Below are positions 4,474 to 62,321 of a stretch of DNA of 64,000 nucleotides, piece by piece. Positions within the stretch are counted from its first letter, which is position 1, and every line of letters starts with the position of its first letter. Below the pieces are notes generated by a model. It made no database searches, was not told where the DNA came from, and worked only from the letters and a program-made list of their open reading frames with translations. The translations under genes were made by a program, and so were the position numbers. Origin of the DNA: Bacteroidetes bacterium GWF2_43_63 (GTDB lineage Bacteria; Bacteroidota; Bacteroidia; Bacteroidales; DTU049); assembly GCA_001769275.1 (NCBI GenBank), contig MEOQ01000028.1, positions 1-64,000 of the forward strand, given 5' to 3'.

Positions 4474-4623
4474 GACCCGCAGCGCGGGTCAAATAATAAT
4501 AGCCCGGACGAAGTCCGGGTAAGAGATCAAGGTATATTGGACCCTGGCAGGGTCCAATCCGAGCATGCGTAATGACATCCGGCTCCGCCGGACGCTATTT
4601 TTGTTCGACATCCTCCGGATGTC
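4474..4623. repeat. Array of five different palindromes
   Basis: Five compact hairpin units lie within 150 bp: GACCCGCAGCGCGGGTC (4474-4490), CCCGGACGAAGTCCGGG (4503-4519), TTGGACCC/GGGTCCAA arms (4537-4557), TCCGGCTCCGCCGGA (4578-4592) and GACATCCTCCGGATGTC (4607-4623). Stems differ from unit to unit and linkers include AATAATAATAG. Related arrays lie at about 37.8 and 61.3-61.55 kb. No long T-run follows, so simple terminators are unlikely. Confidence 0.8.
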
Positions 4624-60336: not shown

Positions 60337-61107
60337 TTAAAGTGTGAATCCAAAAACCAAAAATATATTTTCCGCCATGGGGTTTACAATGAAAGAAGTT
60401 GACAATGGTAGCGTGAAATCTCCGCTTATTTTCACATCCTTTTTTACTTTTAATCCGAGATTGACAAATCCCATTGTGTTGCCGTAAAACCCGCGTGAAA
60501 CGCCTGCCAGTTTATCGGCATCGTTTGGTTTGTTCGGTGTGAAGCCCGCAAAAAGATCGTAGCTGGTACTACCACATTTACCACTGTAGCACAATTCCAT
60601 ATAGGTCGAATAAAACAACTTGCCATCGGCATGTCGGGTATCGGCGCCGTAAAAATTGGCAGCAACAAGAAACGACAAAGGCAGTTCTTCGGTTCCTTTC
60701 CATTTAATGGTGCCTTCGAAAATGTGCCCGCTCAATGAGTCGTTGTATTCAAAGTAATTATTGAATGCTCCCGGGGTTTCGTTCGGAAAGAAATAATCGG
60801 TAACCGTAATATCAATCTTGTCTTTCAGCGTGTAGGTGAGAAACAAATCGGTTTCTTGCGCCTGTGAAAAATTATTGGTGGCAAATGCGCCCCAAACTCC
60901 GAATGTAAAGTTGAAACCAGTGAGCGAAACCGTAGGCTGAATGCTGGGTGACGAGCCAAAATCACTTCCCCGCCACACGTAGCGACTCATGATATCTGCC
61001 CCACTGTTTAATTCTACCTTTGATGTGTCTTTTTCCTGACCTTCCATGAAATAAGGAATCAGAGACACGCAAAGAAAAAAGAATACTGATAAAAATTTTT
61101 GCTTCAT
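60337..61107 (-). CDS. TorF-family putative porin
   Basis: 256 residues from the ATG at 61107 (MKQKFLSVFFFLCVSLIPYF, a signal peptide). Residues around LNSGADIMSRYVWRGSDFGS followed by PSIQPTVSLTGFNFTFGVWG are the hallmark of the TorF/Gcw_chp outer-membrane proteins. The rest is strand-rich and ends in FLVFGFTL. It is co-transcribed with amt. As I recall, this pairing is frequent in Bacteroidota and suggests a role in nitrogen uptake across the outer membrane, which remains inference. A small hairpin (GCTTCG/CGAAGC, 61110-61129) lies just upstream of the start. Confidence 0.85.
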   Translation of the reverse strand: MKQKFLSVFFFLCVSLIPYFMEGQEKDTSKVELNSGADIMSRYVWRGSDFGSSPSIQPTVSLTGFNFTFGVWGAFATNNFSQAQETDLFLTYTLKDKIDITVTDYFFPNETPGAFNNYFEYNDSLSGHIFEGTIKWKGTEELPLSFLVAANFYGADTRHADGKLFYSTYMELCYSGKCGSTSYDLFAGFTPNKPNDADKLAGVSRGFYGNTMGFVNLGLKVKKDVKISGDFTLPLSTSFIVNPMAENIFLVFGFTL

Positions 61108-61225
61108 ATGCTTCGTTTTAATTCGAAGCAAAGCAATAAATACTGCGTCAGATGTACAATACCGAATTAACGGAAATGATTACGTGGCTTTCTGAAAAAG
61201 TCCTACGTGATTCACGTATTTTTCT

Positions 61226-61277
61226 AAAATCAGATTTCGATGATTTTATTTCGGATGGCATATTTAATCAGCTCAAC
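61226..61277 (-). pseudogene. Duplicate of the LuxR-type regulator 3' end
   Basis: 48 of 49 bases (61226-61274) match 61658-61706. On the minus strand it encodes VELIKYAIRNKIIEI and a stop, identical in protein to the intact gene's end. Confidence 0.9.
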
Positions 61278-61279
61278 TA

Positions 61280-61659
61280 TTCCTGACTTCGACACTTTGC
61301 GTTTTCTTTCTTAAAGAATACTGACGTCCGGAGGATGTCAAACAATAATAGCGTCCGGCGAACTTGTCACGTTTTACGTGAAGCCGGATGTAGAATAGCA
61401 CAAAAAACAAGACCCCGTCAGGGTCTAACACCCCTGTTATCGTGAAAAAATATTGTTTTGATTATCCTTTATTTGACCTCTCCGAGGTCGGTTTTTTTCT
61501 TTCTCTTTCCCGGCTTTGCCGGGCTATTATTATTTGACCTGCGCTGCAGGTCGGTTAAAATTCATGACATGCATTGATACTCTTCAATTCTATTCATTGG
61601 ATGTATCATCACAAAACTATAAAAATATAACCATAGTGTCCTAATGGCGAAGTCAGGAA
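61280..61659. mobile_element. 380-bp MITE-like segment with 12-bp inverted ends and a palindrome array
   Basis: TTCCTGACTTCG (61280-61291) and CGAAGTCAGGAA (61648-61659) are perfect inverted repeats. Between them are at least six palindromes: GAC.TCCGGAGGA.GTC type (61323-61339), GCGTCCGGC...GCCGGATGT (61351-61391), GACCCCGTCAGGGTC (61411-61425), GACCTCTCCGAGGTC (61475-61489), CCCGGCTTTGCCGGG (61509-61523) and GACCTGCGCTGCAGGTC (61536-61552). The segment is flanked by the regulator gene end on one side and its copy on the other. No protein is encoded. Confidence 0.65.
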
Positions 61660-61661
61660 AA

Positions 61662-62321
61662 TCAGATTTCAATGATTTTATTTCGGATGGCATATTTAAT
61701 CAGCTCCACCGTTGTTTTTAATTCCAGTTTCTGCATGATATGCGTTTTGTGAGTCTCAACAGTGCGAATGCTGATAAATAGTTTCCCGGCAATTTCCAGA
61801 TTGGAAAGTCCTTCGCAGAACAGGTGTAGCACTTCGTTTTCGCGTTGAGACAATGGCTCTGTCGATGGATCCGGATTTTCTTCTTTTTCCAGTTTTCGCA
61901 TCAGAGCTTTTCGCAGCACGTCGGAAGTGGCTTCACCGAAATATTCTTCGCCGGCATAAAGCCGACGTATGGCATCGGTGAGTTCGCGCGCCGGAATGTT
62001 TTTTGGCAGATACCCTTTTGCGCCAGCTTTAATAGCACGAATGATATATTCTTCATCGTTGTGCATGGAAAGAATGAGTACTGGTAAAGCAGGTCTCATC
62101 TGCAAAATCAGCGGAAGCGCATCAATCCCCGATTTGTCGGGAAGCGAAATATCGAGAATAAGAACATCGGGAAAAGTGTTCTCCAGCGTATTAAGAGCTT
62201 CTGCAGCCGAACTGGCCTCAGCAACGACGTTGATGTCCTGCGTTCCTGAAATGATCGCTTTCACGCCGTCACGCACAATGTCGTGATCATCAACCAGCAT
62301 GATTTTAATTTTATGCTCCAT
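61662..62321 (-). CDS. LuxR-family (NarL-type) response regulator
   Basis: 219 residues. The receiver domain (1-120) has VDDHDIVRDG, phospho-acceptor Asp in VLILDISLPD, and Lys in GYLPKN. A LuxR-type helix-turn-helix (about 152-215) has LSQRENEVLHLFCEGLSNLE and ISIRTVETHKTHIMQKL. It should bind DNA when phosphorylated by the kinase encoded just upstream, whose stop codon it overlaps by 11 bases. The last 49 bases are duplicated 430 bp further on, beyond a palindrome-rich segment. Confidence 0.95.
   Translation of the reverse strand: MEHKIKIMLVDDHDIVRDGVKAIISGTQDINVVAEASSAAEALNTLENTFPDVLILDISLPDKSGIDALPLILQMRPALPVLILSMHNDEEYIIRAIKAGAKGYLPKNIPARELTDAIRRLYAGEEYFGEATSDVLRKALMRKLEKEENPDPSTEPLSQRENEVLHLFCEGLSNLEIAGKLFISIRTVETHKTHIMQKLELKTTVELIKYAIRNKIIEI

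Follow-up and report, generated by a model that had tools for sequence, protein, structure and literature searches.

In the window, by which we mean the whole stretch of 64,000 nucleotides analyzed here, a LuxR-type response-regulator gene of 219 aa is located on the minus strand (61662..62321), its reading frame being intact despite an insertion. The inserted segment (61282-61657, no strand assigned) is a gene-less element of 376 bp with the inverted ends CCTGACTTCG...CGAAGTCAGG, the left one lying on the plus strand (61282..61291; left-type form CCTGACTTCGACACTTTG) and the right one, again reading CCTGACTTCG, on the minus strand (61648..61657; right-type form CCTGACTTCGCCATTAGG). Adjacent to the element on either side are the two copies of a target duplication, likewise without assigned strand. 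The right copy (61658..61713) holds the 3' end of the regulator in its proper place, with the gene ending inside it, and the left copy (61226..61281) represents a second, out-of-place 3' end. This direct repeat is 96% identical over 52 bases (61226-61277 and 61658-61709) and, extended to the edges of the element, comprises 56 bp with 52 identical positions. The doubled gene end with 48 of 49 identical bases given in the preliminary description thus describes the first 49 bases of the full repeat correctly. As the duplicated stretch covers the last codons of the regulator together with its stop codon, the insertion would have restored the end of the gene. The nearest relative of the regulator within the genus (genome G001, 83% at the amino acid level) has its gene end only once and lacks the element, as judged by eye from the 250 bases downstream.

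The segment had been described as 380 bp long with inverted ends of 12 bp. These ends are indeed perfect over 12 bp (61280-61291 and 61648-61659), with the outermost TT/AA representing target DNA, since both bases are also present in the far copy of the duplication. Once they are set aside, the element proper begins at CC and measures the 376 bp given above. Allowing up to one mismatch, 0.27 occurrences of this 12-mer are expected in shuffled versions of the window; two exact ones were observed, a number reached by one of 100 shuffles. The interior of the element folds with -115 kcal/mol compared with a shuffle mean of -81 kcal/mol (z -6; none of 100 shuffles was equally good). Sequence reading and folding place a hairpin-array core at 61322..61552 (no strand assigned), consisting of GACGTCC..GGATGTC, CCGGC..GCCGG, GACCC..GGGTC, GACCTC..GAGGTC, CCCGGC..GCCGGG, and GACCTGC..GCAGGTC. 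At least six palindromes had been noted before; the six hairpins were recognized by eye, and four of them were also listed computationally as perfect stems. The hairpins possibly act as terminators for the neighboring genes. No ORF of at least 60 aa was found within 61282-61657, and the element hence carries no transposase gene; a comparison of positions 61000 to 62000 with Rfam at E values up to 1 gave no match.

Copies in the genome and their parent

The genome comprises 3.98 Mb in 51 contigs and is 98% complete. Within it, the end pattern CCTGACTTCGNCA... was matched 19 times with at most one mismatch, 18 of the matches being ends of the family (nine left-type and nine right-type) and the remaining one, on contig C42, being unrelated. 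The reversed pattern, used as a control, gave one match. Seven of the nine end pairs were defined by an all-against-all comparison of 900-bp flanks; a match of 11 bp linked C19 with C25, and C2/C40 was assigned by elimination. One of the pairs is a copy of an insertion sequence (IS), C4/C38. Only the copies on C28 (the one in the window) and C35 are whole on one contig, while the seven others are broken at contig ends, as is expected of a repeat in an assembly. The element measures 376 bp in the window, ~446 bp on C35, and 989 bp in a diverged copy on C2 that carries a Y1 transposase gene.

A duplication directly adjoins eight of the nine end pairs, ranging from 11 to 70 bp and differing in sequence in every case. 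It amounts to 41 bp at C4/C38, 34 bp with one mismatch at C10/C14, 22 bp at C11/C8, 56 bp with four mismatches in the window, 66 bp with eight mismatches (88% identical) at C33/C7, 26 bp at C39/C10, 70 bp with 11 mismatches (84% identical) at C35, and a weak 11 bp at C19/C25; the pair assigned by elimination, C2/C40, has no adjacent duplication. Seven pairs score at least 22, with 11 being the best score among 110 cross-pairings, a value that C19/C25 merely equals. Searching the genome for segments with such ends and inspecting their flanks, as the preliminary description had proposed, returned nine copies, eight of them next to a duplication. Its view that MITE features occur here together with a flanking duplication well beyond the usual length is likewise borne out by nine copies sharing their ends, long duplications varying in length as well as in sequence, and element lengths from 376 to 989 bp. 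Mismatches between the two copies of a duplication accumulate in the second half of the repeat (26 of 31, counted over C28, C33/C7, C35, C2, and C10/C14). Such clustering is not expected from uniform drift, and one flank was possibly replaced by the allele of another strain.

A search for exact matches to the end pattern in 197 genomes, including the one investigated here, was positive in 16 of them. In a relative (genome G065), the element with the same ends encodes a protein matching NCBIfam NF033559, the IS1634 family transposase, with 1.1e-61 (locus L137). In three of the translated loci (L121, L126, and L133), the DNA ahead of the right end reads as a transposase C-terminus. A scan of named genomes gave 37 loci, all of which we take from their titles to belong to Bacteroidota. 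The NF033559 profile had no match in the assembly containing the window, where the IS1634 transposase is seen only as a C-terminus of 23 codons at the start of contig C38. There, in the right half of C4/C38, TMLITQQHKTIAPLFDESFWKSI followed by a stop codon is encoded just ahead of the right end. Aligned with the C-termini of 36 transposases from IS having both ends, TMLITQQHKTIAPLFDESFWKSI scored 97, compared with 41 for the best of 1000 shuffles. Furthermore, the left end on C4 resembles that of the MITE (73% over 82 bases, E 1.6e-6). The transposase C-terminus on C38 together with the shared ends indicates a copy of the autonomous type within the same genome, its body presumably being lost in an assembly gap. 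Judged by sequence, the ends of the window element are those of IS1634-family IS, including this resident copy.

The MITE itself was found in none of 147 other genomes, three of them from the same genus, at E 1e-6 with up to four candidates scored per genome. A MITE of 229 bp that likewise bears these ends occupies positions 1501-1729 of a locus in genome G180 (L116); its 66-bp duplication is perfect, and no hairpin array was recognized in it by eye.

Lengths and edges of the duplications

For the duplications of IS in other genomes, 107 loci were examined, comprising all 37 loci of the scan, 30 loci of another search, and 40 further matches listed by that search and picked by length. Using the pattern for CC-type ends as the criterion, an end pair was present in 59 loci and absent in 48. 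A duplication was detected in 27 of the 59 end-paired IS, with lengths of 31, 31, 31, 32, 34, 43, 45, 49, 71, 72, 75, 88, 89, 90, 93, 125, 127, 131, 150, 171, 204, 239, 251, 284, 325, 407, and 629 bp. Twenty-two of these are perfect, including the one of 629 bp. Ten of the 27 IS originate from the 37-locus scan and 17 from genomes of the phylum of the window. Among pairs with close ends, 20 of 43 show no duplication. When six in which one of the flanks is shorter than six bases are set aside, the figure becomes 14 of 37. These 14 may have arisen by deletion, by joins made during assembly, or by one copy recombining with another, or their duplications may exceed the available flank.

The edges of the duplications mostly follow the form T/CCTG...GG/A, with the slashes marking the borders of the element. 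Of the 27 IS, 25 have a T directly ahead of the left CC and 23 have an A directly behind the right GG; a count on the flanks within the genome of the window gave T in seven and A in eight of nine cases. Since the far copy of a perfect duplication carries the same base, this T/A edge lies outside the element and represents a target preference. Regarding length, the first values had raised the suspicion of multiples of ~10.5 bp, which found no support with 37 lengths (11 to 629 bp). Between 8 and 14 bp, this small sample gave no conspicuous period (p 0.18-0.28 for any period and 0.19-0.31 for 10.5). It seems that the site of one joining event does not depend on that of the other. The 37 lengths, the edge preference, and the lack of detected phasing constrain any model of how the duplications are formed.

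Hairpin core and Y1 transposase gene

Arrays resembling the hairpin core were found without the inverted ends at five places in the genome, namely C9:66767, C28:70936, positions 4474-4623 of the window, C51:6480, and C10:23353, the latter two being interrupted by another element and partial, respectively. A strict pattern for one of the hairpins detected eight sites, of which five belong to MITE copies, one to the Y1 copy, and two lie outside, the control being zero; with only these two outside of elements, free copies of the hairpin are few. The small element that was inserted into the array on C51 (C51:6480-6657, locus L078) has ends like GAGGCTGTCTCAAAA / TTTTGAGACATCCTCG, and the sequence around the end-pattern match on C42 (C42:150563, locus L112) is similar to it.

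The 989-bp copy (C2:27752-28740, corresponding to 1253-2241 of locus L079) has ends of the same type, one of them degenerate, and a 42-bp duplication with seven mismatches. Between its hairpins, at element positions 348-794, it contains an open gene for a Y1 (HUH) transposase of 148 aa (PF01797) with the motifs DHVH, WQ, and YVSNQQEHH, and it is the only copy in which a hairpin-flanked Y1 gene lies inside the ends. The window element matches this copy on both sides of the Y1 gene, with 35/35 and 35/40 identical bases (E 1e-14 and 3e-10). We infer that either an element of this kind lost its Y1 gene and became the gene-less MITE, or the Y1 gene entered a hairpin MITE. Of the many matches listed, 29 Y1 loci of relatives were inspected and none lies inside the same ends, and neither do the two other Y1 loci of the same genome (C50 and C19), both being results of an insensitive script that also misses the C2 copy with its degenerate end.

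The motif YVSNQQEHH and the length of 148 aa agree with TnpA_Y1 subclass 1.2, which is described in the accessible part of PMC6006769 by the signature Y---Q--HH, 148 aa, and the lack of a REP association. Hairpins flanking a Y1 gene and related arrays being dispersed are also reminiscent of a REPtron or REPIN-RAYT system as outlined in the same text. REPtrons are described as not moving as a unit (PMC6006769, accessible part), and unlike them, the module on C2 is enclosed by DDE-type ends and accompanied by a target duplication.

Origin of the element and of its duplications

In our view, the window element is very probably a MITE derived from an IS1634-type IS. A gene 3' end in two copies could also point to a small integrative element using this 3' end as its attachment site, with a tyrosine recombinase joining the att sites and rebuilding the gene end; in line with this, the duplicated stretch is a gene 3' end including the stop codon and the gene is still open. 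However, the flanks differ in sequence and length at each copy, the inverted ends rather than any common core remain constant, and no 60-aa ORF exists within the element. With eight duplications lacking a common att sequence, att-site integration was ruled out, and we assign it a vanishingly small probability. Equally negligible is the idea that a repeat of the REP/BIME (REPIN) type was moved by a Y1 (RAYT-like) transposase, the inverted ends being incidental. The five core-like arrays without ends and the Y1 gene within one related element speak for it, whereas the duplications accompany the CCTGACTTCG ends. Y1 enzymes (IS200/IS605) are not known to make target duplications, which was counted against this explanation as well.

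The divergence of some duplications would find an explanation if the direct repeats predated the element, which either inserted between imperfect repeats or was placed there by recombination. The repeats of C33/C7 and C35 have diverged to 88% and 84% identity, although the left end on C33 equals a young copy over 89 bases, and in five pairs the mismatches are concentrated beyond the midpoint of the repeat, which points in the same direction. This has to be weighed against the exact contact of all eight repeats with the element, the presence of at most one mismatch in five pairs (C4/C38, C10/C14, C11/C8, C39/C10, and C19/C25), the single gene end seen by eye behind the regulator of G001, and the perfect repeats in 22 of 27 IS, reaching up to 629 bp. 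Older repeats are thus a highly improbable origin, and derivation from an IS1634-type IS by transposition is preferred.

For such a MITE, the transposase of an autonomous IS1634-type IS would bind the CCTGACTTCG ends and act in trans. The two 3' ends would each be joined to a different target strand, in most cases behind a T and with 11 to several hundred bp separating the joining points, and the subsequent gap repair would copy everything in between, generating the duplication. The rebuilt gene end would spare the regulator gene. A long duplication explains in this way how the element could land in a gene end without loss of the gene. The hairpin core would originate from an ancestor related to the C2 copy, with its Y1 gene and hairpins inside IS1634-type ends. 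A more far-reaching version, which we put forward as a tentative and rather doubtful possibility, assumes an element with two engines. Here, the Y1 gene and the hairpins would be packaged in DDE-type ends of the IS1634 family and spread by that transposon, the hairpin MITEs would be its offspring, and the arrays without ends would have been moved by Y1. The IS1634-type transposase would join each end independently behind T, and the free mutual distance of the joining points would lead to duplications of 11 to 629 bp. The hairpin and Y1 cargo suggests a possible travel route for REP-like modules.

According to the accessible part of a review from 2008 (PMC2266710), target duplications of the IS1634 family are as a rule 5-6 bp long, while IS1549 and IS1634 produce long and variable ones of 8-514 bp, which at that time were without a mechanistic model. 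As long variable duplications are known for these two IS, the duplication itself is no new phenomenon. As far as that text describes them, the elements investigated here share with IS1634 and IS1549 ends beginning with C, a transposase of the family in the autonomous relatives, and long variable duplications (11-629 bp in this study). In contrast to both, the window element is non-autonomous, devoid of a transposase gene, and hairpin-bearing. MITECca01 of Cardinium, another member of the Bacteroidota, is comparable in being short, gene-less, and multicopy and in sharing its ends with a resident IS, but derives from a different parent family, IS982, and the accessible text of PMC9769881 mentions neither a hairpin cargo nor a target duplication for it, the terms "target site" and "direct repeat" being absent from that text. 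Within the open-access literature, we found no description of an IS1634-family MITE with long duplications or of a Y1 gene in IS1634-type ends. The features for which no description was found are the six-hairpin core array, which recurs elsewhere without ends, and the intact Y1 gene between hairpins in the 989-bp relative.

As a minor observation, positions 1501-1756 of a locus in genome G045 (L127) contain a shortened IS1634-type IS, whose transposase consists of an N-terminal stretch running in frame into the last codons. This is apparently a MITE in the making, although it could be an assembly chimera.
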